This document shows, piece after piece, positions 25,449 through 28,639 of a stretch of 64,000 nt of DNA. The first letter of the stretch is position 1, and every line of letters starts with the position of its first letter. The DNA lies in assembly GCF_030817075.1 (NCBI RefSeq), contig NZ_JAUSYU010000001.1, positions 124,001 through 188,000 on the forward strand. Reading direction: 5' to 3'. The notes beneath the pieces were generated by a model. The model had not been told where the DNA came from. It was given only the letters and a program-made list of their open reading frames with translations, and did not search any database. The translations under genes and the position numbers were made by a program. The DNA is from Arthrobacter sp. V1I9. Lineage in GTDB: Bacteria; Actinomycetota; Actinomycetes; Actinomycetales; Micrococcaceae.

Positions 25449-26012
25449 GTGCTAGACACTTTGGCCCAAGAAGAGATCGACATATTCGACGACGCAGCCG
25501 GAACCGACCCGGCAGCGCTGTTCGGCGTCGCTTACCGGTCCTTTGCAGGTCCAGTGCTGGGTTACCTTAAGGCACGGGGCGTCGACGATCCCGAAGCGGT
25601 GACCCAGGACGTGTTCCTGGCGTTCTTTCCGAAGATCAGCGGCCTCACCGGAGGGCTGCAGGGCGCCAAGTCATTACTGTTTTCCATCGCCCACGCCCGG
25701 ATGGTTGACCACTATCGGCGGCAGGAACGCAGGCCCCAGCTGACTCCTTACGACCCTCAGGAGGACAGCCGGAGTACCCCCTCCGCAGAGCACTGTGTGG
25801 TGGAGCTGAACGGCGCTGCTGCCGCCTTGCTGGACGGACTCAGCGACGAACACCAGGAAGTGCTGGCCCTGCGGGTGGTGGCCGACCTTTCCATAGAACA
25901 GGTGGCCGGAATCATGGGCAAAAGCGAAGGGGCGGTCAAGCAGCTCCAGCGCAGGGCCCTTCAGAATCTCAAGGCACAGACGCTCAAAAGAAACCAGGCA
26001 AACAATGAGTGA
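25449..26012 (+). CDS. Sigma-70-family (ECF-type) RNA polymerase sigma factor
   Basis: A 187-residue sigma factor. Region 2 spans about 25-95 (YRSFAGPVLGYLKARGVDD, DPEAVTQDVFLAFF, AHARMVDHYRRQER); region 4 spans about 125-180 (LSDEHQEVLALRVVADLSIE and VAGIMGKSEGAVKQLQRRA). Start is taken as GTG 25449 because GGAGGAG lies 6 nt upstream; ATG 25434 lies inside that ribosome site region. It overlaps the next gene by 8 nt, a sigma/anti-sigma style arrangement. No matching promoter of its own type was found upstream. Confidence 0.85.
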   Translation: MLDTLAQEEIDIFDDAAGTDPAALFGVAYRSFAGPVLGYLKARGVDDPEAVTQDVFLAFFPKISGLTGGLQGAKSLLFSIAHARMVDHYRRQERRPQLTPYDPQEDSRSTPSAEHCVVELNGAAAALLDGLSDEHQEVLALRVVADLSIEQVAGIMGKSEGAVKQLQRRALQNLKAQTLKRNQANNE

Positions 26013-26736
26013 CACCGCAGGATCCCGCCGTGACGGCTCCGTTGACCAGCTGCTGTTGGAGGCGGACCTGGACGGCGACACGCGGCTCCGCCCCGTCCTT
26101 TTGGAACTCCGGGCGTTGGGATCTGTTGCACCGGAACCAACAGCTGAGCTGCTTGCCCTGATGGCCGGAGCAACCGCGACGCCTGCGGCCGTCGAACCCC
26201 CATCAGGTCCTGCTGACGAGCTGGCTGCCCGCCGCAGGGCCAGACGCCGGGCCACCCTCACGGCGCTGTCCGTGGCGGTTTCCTTGAGCGCCGGCGGTGC
26301 CATTGCCGCGGCGTCCGACCAAACCTTCCGGGAATCATTCAGTCAGCTCAACCAGGCGGTCACTTCCTTTATCACCACTTCCGGCGGCGCAACTGCGGAC
26401 CATCCTGCCGAACAGCCCGCGACACCTCTGCCCGCAGCCACCTCCGGTACGGCGCCCACCAGCGCTTCACCCGCCGGCGACCCGGCATCGATACCGGCAG
26501 GCCCCGCCGCAGCCACGCAGCCGACGGCGGGTCAGCCGTCGGACGGCCCGGCCGCGGAAGGGCCCGCCACACGCCAGCCAACTTCCCCGGGTAAGCCCGG
26601 GGAAGTCCCCGCTTCAAAGACCCTGCCCGGGGTTGTTCCCGGACGTATCGACGATGGACTGGGCGGCTCGCCGGAAGTGCCGGTTCCTTCACAGGTTCCC
26701 TTGCCGGCGACGCTGCCGGCAGTTCCGCTCCCGTGA
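26005..26736 (+). CDS. Single-pass membrane protein with Pro/Ala/Thr-rich tail, possible anti-sigma factor
   Basis: A 243-residue protein. Residues 1 to about 75 are soluble and Leu/Asp-rich (SVDQLLLEADLDGDTRLRP), then RRRARRRATLTALSVAV leads into one membrane helix. The rest is a Pro/Ala/Ser/Thr-rich low-complexity extracellular segment. There is no HxxxCxxC zinc motif, so it is not a classical ZAS anti-sigma factor. Overlap with the sigma gene and topology suggest it holds or modulates that sigma factor, but this is inference. Strong Pro/Ala bias resembles the neighbouring exported Ala-rich protein. Confidence 0.55.
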   Translation: MSDTAGSRRDGSVDQLLLEADLDGDTRLRPVLLELRALGSVAPEPTAELLALMAGATATPAAVEPPSGPADELAARRRARRRATLTALSVAVSLSAGGAIAAASDQTFRESFSQLNQAVTSFITTSGGATADHPAEQPATPLPAATSGTAPTSASPAGDPASIPAGPAAATQPTAGQPSDGPAAEGPATRQPTSPGKPGEVPASKTLPGVVPGRIDDGLGGSPEVPVPSQVPLPATLPAVPLP

Positions 26737-26767: not shown

Positions 26768-27307
26768 TTATTTGGCAGCCGTCTTGATCATTTCGCCGGC
26801 CGGATCCGCAAGGTACCAGACATCATTGACGCCCTGACCGAGGATGTCACCGGCCTTGGTGTCCTTCTGGAAGTAGTACAGCGGCATGCCGTTCAAGGTC
26901 ACCTGCTTGGCACCCTCCGGCGTGGTTATGGTGCCCACGGTTCCGGTTACCCCCTCCACCTTGGGCTCGTCCGCAGTGGTGAGAAGCGGCGGCCAGGCGG
27001 TCAGGCAACCTCCCGTGCAGGCACTGGTGCCGGAATCCTTCACATCCTTGGTGAAGTAGTAGAGGCTCATCCCCTTTGAATCGACCACAATGTCACCCAG
27101 GCTGGAGGAACCGATCATCAGGTCGACTCCGGCGGCTGCAGTTGACGCTGAAGACGTGGCAGTGGGATCGGCCGAGGTCGTCGCGGGAGCGGCAGTGGTG
27201 GCCGCGGGCGTGCTGGCTGCAGGGGTGGTTCCGCTGCCGCCGGCGCAGCCTGCCAGGGCCGCCGTCAGGGCGAGGATGGTAAGGCCTGTTCCCAGATGCT
27301 TTTTCAT
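26768..27307 (-). CDS. Lipoprotein with two COG4315 secreted repeats
   Basis: A 179-residue lipoprotein. The signal MKKHLGTGLTILALTAALAG ends in a lipobox with the lipidated Cys at about 21 (LAGC). A Thr/Ala/Ser linker follows. Two copies of the secreted repeat of unknown function come next: LYYFTKDVKDSG with CTGGCLTAWPPLL, and LYYFQKDTKAGD with VWYLADP. These repeats are common in actinobacterial and proteobacterial secreted proteins that are thought to handle stress or redox. It is divergent from the SigL-like operon, and its promoter mirrors the sigma gene's promoter, so it is a likely member of that regulon. Confidence 0.85.
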   Translation of the reverse strand: MKKHLGTGLTILALTAALAGCAGGSGTTPAASTPAATTAAPATTSADPTATSSASTAAAGVDLMIGSSSLGDIVVDSKGMSLYYFTKDVKDSGTSACTGGCLTAWPPLLTTADEPKVEGVTGTVGTITTPEGAKQVTLNGMPLYYFQKDTKAGDILGQGVNDVWYLADPAGEMIKTAAK

Positions 27308-27357
27308 AGGTTTGCTCCTTGGCTCGTGCCCGGCGTCGATGCCGGACGCTAACGAGT

Positions 27358-27385
27358 AATACGCTTCCGGGTGAAGAATGGTTCA
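27358..27385 (-). promoter_or_regulatory. SigL-type ECF promoter for the lipoprotein gene
   Basis: On the minus strand, TGAACC (27385-27380), exactly 16 nt, then CGTATT (27363-27358). Mycobacterial SigL recognises TGAACC with a CGT-type -10 at 16-17 nt. Predicted start of transcription is about 27350, giving a leader of about 45 nt. Confidence 0.7.
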
Positions 27386-27387
27386 AA

Positions 27388-27415
27388 TGAACCAAATTCC
27401 GGCTGCGGACGTCGT
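27388..27415 (+). promoter_or_regulatory. SigL-type ECF promoter for the sigma/anti-sigma operon
   Basis: TGAACC (27388-27393), exactly 16 nt, then CGTCGT (27410-27415). It is the mirror image of the lipoprotein promoter, and the two -35 boxes form one palindrome with a 2-nt spacer. It implies autoregulation and a transcript start near 27422, which supports the sigma start at 27474. Confidence 0.7.
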
Positions 27416-27473
27416 ACCAGCCGGAAGCAGCACGGAGGCGAGCGTGCTGCAGGCCGGGACGGGAGGTCCTGAA

Positions 27474-27974
27474 ATGCCTCTGGATGAGGATGTGGTGGAG
27501 TCCATTTACCGTGAACACGGCCCGGCCCTGCGCCGCTTCGTGCTCAGTGCGTCCCGGGACCCGCAACTGGCCGAAGATGTTGTCCAGGAAACCGTGCTCC
27601 GTGTATGGCAGCACGCGCCGGAGGTCACCGGAAGCCTCCGCAGCTATCTTTTCCGGACGGCCAGGAACATCATGATCGACAATTACCGCCGGGCGCAGCG
27701 CCGCCCGGCCGAAACCCTCGACGACGGCCTTGCCGATTCTGCGGATGCTGTGGAACGCGTGGATGAGCTGTTGAACAGGGTGCTGATCGAGGAAGCGCTG
27801 CTCCGCCTCAGCTCGGAACACCGGGACGTGCTGGTTGCCCTGCACTACCGCCGCTTCACCGTGAATGAGGCAGCGGTGCAGTTGAACGTCCCGAGCGGAA
27901 CGGTGAAGTCCCGTGCCTTCTACGCTGTGCGGGCGTTGCGGACCATTCTGGACGAGATGGGGGTGGAACGGTGA
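27474..27974 (+). CDS. sigL: SigL-like ECF sigma factor
   Basis: A 166-residue ECF sigma factor. Region 2 is about 8-75 (VESIYREHGPALRRFVLSA, LAEDVVQETVLRVWQHA, LFRTARNIMIDNYRR); region 4 is about 105-160 (LSSEHRDVLVALHYRRFTV and VPSGTVKSRAFYAVRAL). ATG 27474 is chosen over ATG 27378: GGAGG lies 7 nt upstream, the family start MPLDEDVVE follows, and the predicted promoter lies between the two candidates. It overlaps the anti-sigma gene by 4 nt (GTGA). The assignment as SigL-like rests on the TGAACC promoter and RslA-like partner. Confidence 0.8.
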   Translation: MPLDEDVVESIYREHGPALRRFVLSASRDPQLAEDVVQETVLRVWQHAPEVTGSLRSYLFRTARNIMIDNYRRAQRRPAETLDDGLADSADAVERVDELLNRVLIEEALLRLSSEHRDVLVALHYRRFTVNEAAVQLNVPSGTVKSRAFYAVRALRTILDEMGVER

Positions 27975-28639
27975 ACGCTTCCGAGCAGCACCAGTTGCTG
28001 GGCGCCTACCTTCTGGGCGGACTGGACGCCGAGGATTTGAAGGGTTTCGAAGCGCACCTGCAGGGTTGCGTGAAATGCCGGGATGAGCTTGCCCGGCTTG
28101 AGAAAGTGCCCGCCTTGCTGGACGCCCTTCCGGTGCCGGACGCTGTGGCGCTCACCGTGGTCCCGGCTGGATTGGGTGCGCCGCCCGCCCCTGCAGCCGG
28201 GGCGCCGGTGTACCTCCTGTCCAAACTGGCGAACCGCCGCCGTAAGGCGCGACGGCGGTGGGCGGCTCTGGTAGGCGCTGTGGCCGCAGCGTGCCTCGCC
28301 GTGGGGATGGCGGTGGGTCCGCTGCTGAACCGGCCCGCGCAACCGGACGCCACATATTCAGTGCAGTCCGGAGGCGGCCTGCAGTTCAGCATCGACCTGG
28401 CCCGGAAGAACTGGGGAACCGAGCTGGCCGTGAACGGCAGCAGCCTCCCCTCCGACGGGACATTGTCGCTGTGGGTGCGGGACCGTGCCGGCGGCGAGGA
28501 CCGTGCGTGCGCCTGGACGGCCACCCCGAGCGGCAGGGTCAAGGTTACCGGTGCCACGCCCATCCAGCTGACCAGCATTTCGAGTGTGGAACTGCGGGAC
28601 GGCACGCAGCAGGCCGTCGCGGTGATCACCGTACCCTAG
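27971..28639 (+). CDS. Zinc-dependent membrane anti-sigma factor (RslA/RskA type)
   Basis: A 222-residue protein. The N-terminal zinc anti-sigma domain has the HxxxCxxC motif in FEAHLQGCVKCRDEL (about 27-41). A basic stretch (NRRRKARRR) precedes one membrane helix (ALVGAVAAACLAVGMAVG), then comes an RskA-like extracellular domain with ARKNWGTELAVNG and TPIQLTSISSVEL. Known members release their sigma factor on oxidation of the Cys or by regulated proteolysis. GTG start overlaps the sigma stop. It should bind the sigma factor encoded just before. Confidence 0.88.
   Translation: MNASEQHQLLGAYLLGGLDAEDLKGFEAHLQGCVKCRDELARLEKVPALLDALPVPDAVALTVVPAGLGAPPAPAAGAPVYLLSKLANRRRKARRRWAALVGAVAAACLAVGMAVGPLLNRPAQPDATYSVQSGGGLQFSIDLARKNWGTELAVNGSSLPSDGTLSLWVRDRAGGEDRACAWTATPSGRVKVTGATPIQLTSISSVELRDGTQQAVAVITVP

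Follow-up and report, generated by a model that had tools for sequence, protein, structure and literature searches.

In Arthrobacter sp. V1I9, an intergenic site between an ECF sigma/anti-sigma operon (27474-28639, plus strand) and a gene for a PF03640 lipoprotein (26768-27307, minus strand) is very probably a back-to-back promoter pair belonging to a single ECF sigma factor. The site holds two TGAACC-N16-CGT promoters, back-to-back, in the window, by which we mean the whole 64,000-nt stretch of DNA that was analysed. One arm would drive the sigma/anti-sigma operon and the other the divergent lipoprotein gene, an assignment first proposed in a sequence-only reading of this DNA, which labelled the lipoprotein COG4315, and now supported by conservation in addition to sequence. 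The adjacent sigma factor probably reads both arms.

Architecture of the locus

The genes and promoter elements lie at the following positions.

26768-27307, minus: lipoprotein of 179 aa with PF03640 repeats (domain match) and lipobox LAGC (read by eye)
27357-27363, minus: -10 CGTATTA of the lipoprotein promoter; 16-nt spacer 27379-27364, predicted start 27349 (sequence, base counts)
27369-27379, minus: conserved part of the lipoprotein-side spacer, ATTCTTCACCC (base conservation, 78 loci)
27380-27385, minus: -35 TGAACC of the lipoprotein promoter, the left arm, GGTTCA on the plus strand (sequence)
27386-27387, no strand: gap of 2 nt (AA) between the two -35 hexamers (sequence)
27388-27393, plus: -35 TGAACC of the sigma promoter, the right arm (sequence); TGAAC[C/T] in relatives
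27410-27416, plus: -10 CGTCGTA of the sigma promoter; 16-nt spacer 27394-27409, predicted start 27424 (sequence, base counts)
27461-27466, plus: ribosome-binding site GGGAGG, 7 nt before the sigma ATG (read by eye)
27474-27974, plus: SigL-like ECF sigma factor of 166 aa, start 27474 (Sigma70_r2 and Sigma70_r4 matches)
27971-28639, plus: anti-sigma factor of 222 aa, zf-HC2 with HxxxCxxC, overlapping the sigma stop codon (domain match, motif)

The sequence-only reading had described an inverted repeat, GGTTCA-AA-TGAACC, with a TGAACC in each arm and CGT-type -10 boxes (CGTCGT and CGTATT) exactly 16 nt from each -35. The hexamers are present at 27380-27385 and 27388-27393, and both spacers are as it claimed. 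It had also taken the repeat for a single palindromic -35 shared by the two promoters, which is incorrect: there are two separate hexamers, 2 nt apart, and none is shared. The -35 boxes face each other and the -10 elements of the two arms start 47 nt apart; the overlapping or shared -10 of a bidirectional promoter was not found (27357-27363 versus 27410-27416).

Counting by the numbering of the SigL promoter, with C at -14 in the passages available of the SigL structure paper (PMC6372665), places the predicted transcription starts at 27424 (plus) and 27349 (minus), within 1-2 nt of the 27422 and 27350 proposed earlier. The sigma ATG at 27474 lies 50 nt past the predicted transcription start and follows the Shine-Dalgarno sequence at 27461-27466, and a longer sigma frame from 27378 would start upstream of the predicted transcription start. 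The aligned start column in 36 loci contains 33 ATG and 1 GTG, 2 loci being anchored differently, which bears out the earlier placing of the sigma start at 27474.

Sigma regions 2 and 4, followed by an HxxxCxxC membrane protein (membrane segment read by eye), make up the class I zinc anti-sigma (ZAS) architecture. In the PDB, the sigma factor matched Mycobacterium tuberculosis SigL best, and the anti-sigma factor had a single match, 3hug_B, which we take to be RslA. A second ECF-like sigma gene, with region 4 and no Pfam match for region 2, lies about 2 kb away at 25479-26012. The frame after it (26005-26736) has a hydrophobic stretch and no Pfam match and is perhaps its anti-sigma factor; its protein was matched upstream of the lipoprotein gene in part of the genus loci.

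Conservation of the pair in Arthrobacter and Pseudarthrobacter

The decisive evidence against a chance origin of the pair is its conservation. A lone TGAACC-N15-19-CGT occurs 5 times in the window against 2.46 expected, which is not significant (13 of 100 shuffles were as high), and a back-to-back pair with a gap of 0-90 was contained in 0 of 200 first-order simulated windows. A check of the divergent pair in relatives, suggested in the sequence-only reading, was run on three overlapping sets of 37 loci, 80 named loci and 206 genomes, and the pair proved to be conserved in all three.

The sigma factor was found in 36 of 37 genus genomes (its own included) at 76-100% identity, split into two pieces in G030. 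Both arms with exactly N16 are present in 36 of the 37 loci scanned, the sole exception being L066, a second, 70% copy in G032. The 80 named Arthrobacter/Pseudarthrobacter loci, chosen as the best among 127 relatives found, have the pair in 79 cases, and in 78 of these with N16 on both sides; L187 has 17 nt on the lipoprotein side, and the one miss, L126, has TGATCC, with one base altered, as its lipoprotein -35. By pattern, the pair occurs in 181 of 206 genus genomes, a count of pattern matches in which adjacency to the sigma gene was seen for those genomes whose loci were fetched. Left out of this count were the second places found in G004, G373, G424 and G475, the mirror versions of rows in which both arms match, in G506 the outer of two places that overlap, and duplicates in G457 and G496.

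The 25 genomes without a pattern match comprise 6 without the sigma factor at E 1e-30 and 19 with it. Thirteen of these 19 do carry the pair: in 5 the gap is 61-86 nt, and in 8 the bases or spacing beside the core differ. Another 3 are near misses, with TGAACG on the sigma side (L195 and L203) or a degenerate sigma side (L212). In the remaining 3 (L209-L211) the lipoprotein gene and its promoter are absent together: there is no lipoprotein match within about 1.5 kb on each side and no lipoprotein-side promoter, and the sigma promoter is kept. An apparent decayed remnant (AAGAATGGTCTA) of the lipoprotein -35 can be seen in L210. G024, the only genome of the 37 to lack the sigma factor, also had no pattern match. 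The five further genomes without the sigma factor prove nothing, because this search was restricted to genomes lacking a pattern match. An own-type promoter is found upstream of the sigma operon and is kept in orthologues, as expected of an autoregulated ECF unit, which this operon is predicted to be.

Two closely similar back-to-back matches with a gap of 24 were seen at G424:C1:12442-12499 and G434:C14:817-874; in G424 this match comes in addition to the main place, and a paralogous pair may exist. The sigma, anti-sigma and neighbouring frames of L067 (G030) are fragmented, perhaps through assembly errors.

Consensus of the two arms and the lipoprotein-side spacer

Common to both arms is TGAACCNTT-N13-CGTCGTA. 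In 78 aligned loci, which had been picked by TGAAC[CT]-N16-CGT, the consensus of the sigma arm is TGAAC(C/T)NTT-N13-CGTC(G)TA and that of the lipoprotein arm is TGAACCATT-N13-CGTC(G)TA, the lipoprotein-side -35 being TGAACC in 78 of 78 aligned arms. The window has AAA after the sigma -35, versus NTT in most relatives, and CGTATTA as its lipoprotein -10, where the genus consensus is CGTCGTA.

Conservation of the spacer, calculated over 78 loci per side, is 0.70-1.90 bits per position on the lipoprotein side and 0.15-1.23 at the equivalent positions on the sigma side. The conserved spacer ATTCTTCACCC suggests that something further may act on the lipoprotein arm. This could be a second regulator with ATTCTTCACCC as its site, or the spacer could tune this promoter relative to the sigma arm, a reading that we hold only as a tentative one, well short of an even chance. 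It would account for a lipoprotein spacer that reaches 1.9 bits beside a mostly variable sigma-side spacer, and for a lipoprotein-side TGAACCATT that 9 of 11 loci from other genera (L216-L226) retain. However, the first part of the lipoprotein spacer may instead be an extended -35, because the sigma side, too, favours TT after the -35, and no candidate regulator was found, including no MarR-type protein identified. A second regulator and a pair of promoters of one sigma factor are not exclusive, and the former may add to the latter.

The pair beyond the genus

Among 395 genomes of the family, 54 matched a strict short-gap pattern, and 9 of the 54 belong to other genera. We sampled 38 genomes, 31 taken one per genus and 7 added for having matched this pattern. 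At E 1e-25, 12 of the 31 one-per-genus genomes had a match, which was orthologue-like in 5 and paralogue-like in 7. The orthologues (L215-L226) number 12, with 7 from the pattern-added genomes and 5 drawn without regard to the pattern; the pair is present in 7 of 7 of the former and in 4 of 5 of the latter, which are 55-65% identical and include L220, without a sigma-side match. A PF03640 gene lies upstream of the sigma gene on the opposite strand in 11 of 11 orthologue loci with enough flank.

Ten distant family paralogues (L227-L236) all have TGAAC..CGT before the sigma gene, and 4 of the 10 have a back-to-back pair. The 27 class-level relatives, which are the best-scoring loci from the 127 of 296 genomes that gave a match, include 17 with the sigma-side motif and 2 with the pair, 2 of the 27 (L260 and L263) having less than 50 nt upstream. 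Pairs are also found in L068, L213, L214, L072 and L074. Sets of 1826, 1493 and 4133 random windows drawn from the same loci as controls contained no pair, and the single motif was found in 0-6% of them. The paralogue and class counts suggest that the self-directed motif is widespread and that the conserved back-to-back pair is chiefly a trait of the clade of the window sigma factor.

The paralogues L068, L213, L214 and L227-L236 form a separate clade that contains M. tuberculosis SigL, and they differ from the window in their neighbours. In L227-L236 a PF03640 match lies downstream of the operon in 7 of 10, on the opposite strand in 6 of these 7, and in L213 and L214 the divergent neighbour is another small lipoprotein-like frame. 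A PF03640 match downstream of the sigma/anti-sigma genes was seen in L228, L231-L236, L249, L251 and L252, which belong to other genera or orders. This suggests that the lipoprotein family and SigL-like sigma factors are linked beyond the divergent layout.

Proposed working of the pair and the distance between its -35 boxes

In the mechanism that we propose, the anti-sigma factor would hold the sigma factor until some signal frees it, and the holoenzyme of the freed sigma factor could then bind either arm. Binding to the right arm would produce more sigma and anti-sigma factor (autoregulation), and binding to the left arm would produce the PF03640 lipoprotein. Conservation of the pair would reflect the control of both genes by one sigma factor, which seemingly has few other strong sites. 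The 2-nt gap of the window would make a perfect palindrome out of two inverted -35 boxes, with exclusive occupancy as a by-product: at 2 nt the upstream flank of each promoter is the -35 of the other, so that simultaneous binding is improbable and occupancy in the window genome is probably exclusive.

The gap between the -35 boxes ranges from 2 to 51 nt in the 181 genus genomes (gaps of 0-60 scanned) and from 61 to 86 nt in five more, an overall range of 2-86 nt. Among the 181, it is 7 nt or less in 72, exactly 2 nt in 7, and 0 or 1 nt in none. The fixed distance of a conserved palindromic -35 pair is therefore not found, and a shared or palindromic -35 as a conserved feature is ruled out by the variable gap. 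The window palindrome is best read as the short end of a gap continuum, and the distance between the arms appears to be loosely constrained.

The sigma-gene tree (81 rows, 492 columns) has many weakly supported forks, and gains and losses are indistinguishable in it. Of its 80 rows with a gap, 24 are in the small-gap state (8 nt or less), which must have changed 7 or more times; for the 2-nt state the minimum is 2 changes. At G408:C97:1942-1998 (L081) the gap is widened from 7 to 23 nt by a 16-nt tandem repeat inside it, of which the -35 is a part, which shows one route by which the gap can change. Helical phasing of the gaps, an idea that came from an apparent clustering of the first 36, was rejected: no peak near 10.5 emerged when periods of 6-20 were tried over the 181 gaps, the best periods being 14.5 for the 39 distinct gap values (R 0.19) and 19.75 for all 181 gaps (R 0.43, at the scan edge).

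The claim that only one polymerase binds at a time thus has two parts that fare differently. Exclusion is probably real in this genome; a built-in switch that is conserved, with touching -35 boxes evolved to admit one polymerase and force a choice between autoregulation and lipoprotein, is not supported and we consider it unlikely. Hexamers 2 nt apart, with each -35 forming the region upstream of the other, would suit such a switch, as would the short gaps of the 72 genomes and a small-gap state that changed repeatedly. However, gaps of 11 to 86 nt occur in more than half of the genus, and the passages available on E. coli bidirectional promoters describe marked polymerase competition only at high activity (PMC12825309). 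Given this variation in the gap and the at least 7 changes of the small-gap state, a dedicated steric switch is unlikely to have been the selected function.

A more elaborate proposal, speculative and improbable, is that the genus forms a natural series in which gaps from 2 to 86 nt lead from exclusive to independent occupancy, so that lineages would tune the coupling of autoregulation and lipoprotein expression, with a further factor reading the lipoprotein spacer. The natural spacing variants are usable for measuring polymerase exclusion between back-to-back ECF promoters.

Other occurrences of the motif and the extent of the regulon

Returning to two promoters of one sigma factor, the regulon of this factor is probably very small, with little more than two transcription units, as judged from motif scans. 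Among 150 matches listed to the exact TGAACC-N16-CGTCGTA in 206 genomes, 135 are arms of the pair and 15 lie elsewhere (counted by hand); the reversed control gave 11 matches across all 206 genomes. In the own genome, neither a strict scan (6 versus 5) nor a relaxed pattern (9 matches versus 10) showed an excess over the control, and the top match of the relaxed pattern was the lipoprotein arm. The loose TGAACC-N15-17-CGT is in excess in this genome, with 122 matches versus 66 for the reversed motif, and there may be weaker targets beyond the pair, since weak sites would escape the scans. An extra exact TGAACC-N16-CGTCGTA in the own genome, at G000:C1:1916905-1916933 (L189:1501-1529), sits 61 nt upstream of a 193-aa frame with several hydrophobic stretches, a probable membrane protein; no counterpart of this site was found among the 150 matches listed from the 206 genomes.

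It is very unlikely, in our judgment, that each arm belongs to a different ECF sigma factor and that the two arms only look alike. The own genome (G000) does contain 7 ECF-like matches, the window sigma factor included, and one of them is the gene about 2 kb away; the two arms also deviate from the consensus differently, each being imperfect in the window (AAA after the sigma -35, CGTATTA as the lipoprotein -10), and another similar ECF sigma factor could read one of them. Yet one strict consensus describes both arms, the matches listed in the genus are mostly this pair, and the genome among the 37 that lacks the sigma factor lacks the pattern as well. A role of the palindrome GGTTCAAATGAACC as the operator of a dimeric transcription factor, in place of two -35 boxes, is scarcely credible. 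It is a perfect 14-bp inverted repeat, and in the passages available of one report a mycobacterial MarR protein binds the promoter region of sigL (PMC13002591), but a dimer operator is ruled out by a half-site distance that varies from 2 to 86 nt, and each half keeps its CGT at 16 nt in 36 of 37 loci.

With the pair as promoters of one sigma factor, the sigma clade of Arthrobacter and its kin gains a well-supported promoter consensus and probably a very small regulon. Its main target would be a lipoprotein family of unknown function, which gains a testable link to envelope signalling.

Comparison with known systems

The bidirectional promoters of E. coli likewise give divergent transcription with possible polymerase competition, but in the passages available they share parts of one -10, whereas the -10s are separate here (PMC12825309). 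Marked competition there did not show at first and emerged once transcription was increased, according to the same passages (PMC12825309). Because competition depends on activity in E. coli, the weight of exclusion at the present pair would depend on promoter activity. In Streptomyces coelicolor, passages of one study place SCO0930 in the regulon of the ECF sigma factor SigU (PMC6295645). The present locus is similar in pairing an ECF sigma factor with a putative target, and it differs in that the window lipoprotein scores 117.6 against the NCBIfam SCO0930 model, below the cut-off of 275. No literature on this promoter pair itself was found in the open-licence literature searched.

The window sigma factor resembles SigL in its predicted workings and is not a SigL ortholog. 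In a family tree, which was a quick one with SH-aLRT support only and four long end branches, it falls in a 22-row clade of its own family (support 100), and M. tuberculosis SigL falls in a 20-row set (support 98) with paralogues of the window-sigma family and sigma factors of other groups. Against the NCBIfam model NF007227/PRK09645, which we take to stand for SigL, it scores 172.3 bits, below the cut-off of 202. The -35 of SigL is TGAACC. The passages available of the SigL structure paper give the bases of the -10 and print no -35 sequence; in them, P-sigL of M. tuberculosis is read by SigL itself, its -10 is C-G, then T-G-N-C/A-A-G, and SigL His54 and Asp60 set specificity at -12 and -11 (PMC6372665).

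Compared with these bases, the two arms have C at -11 in 66 of 78 loci on the sigma side and 75 of 78 on the lipoprotein side, and T at -9 in 72 of 78 and 78 of 78, respectively, and they agree with SigL in the A at -8; the SigL -10 consensus as given in those passages is thus not found here. The loop matching the His54/Asp60 loop of SigL is about 3 residues shorter here, and in this region of uncertain alignment Ser occupies the position of Asp60 in 80 of 80 genus sequences, of which 37 have His and 43 have Gln opposite His54. Ser opposite Asp60 fits an altered preference at -11. The earlier claim that the locus uses the same signals as SigL therefore holds for the CGT that starts the -10 and for the A at -8, but -11 and -9 differ and the sigma factors are not orthologous. 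As in the SigL-RslA system of M. tuberculosis, the sigma gene adjoins a gene for a zinc-type membrane anti-sigma factor and has a promoter of its own type before it; unlike in that system, the -10 here reads CGTCGTA, which places C at -11 and T at -9.
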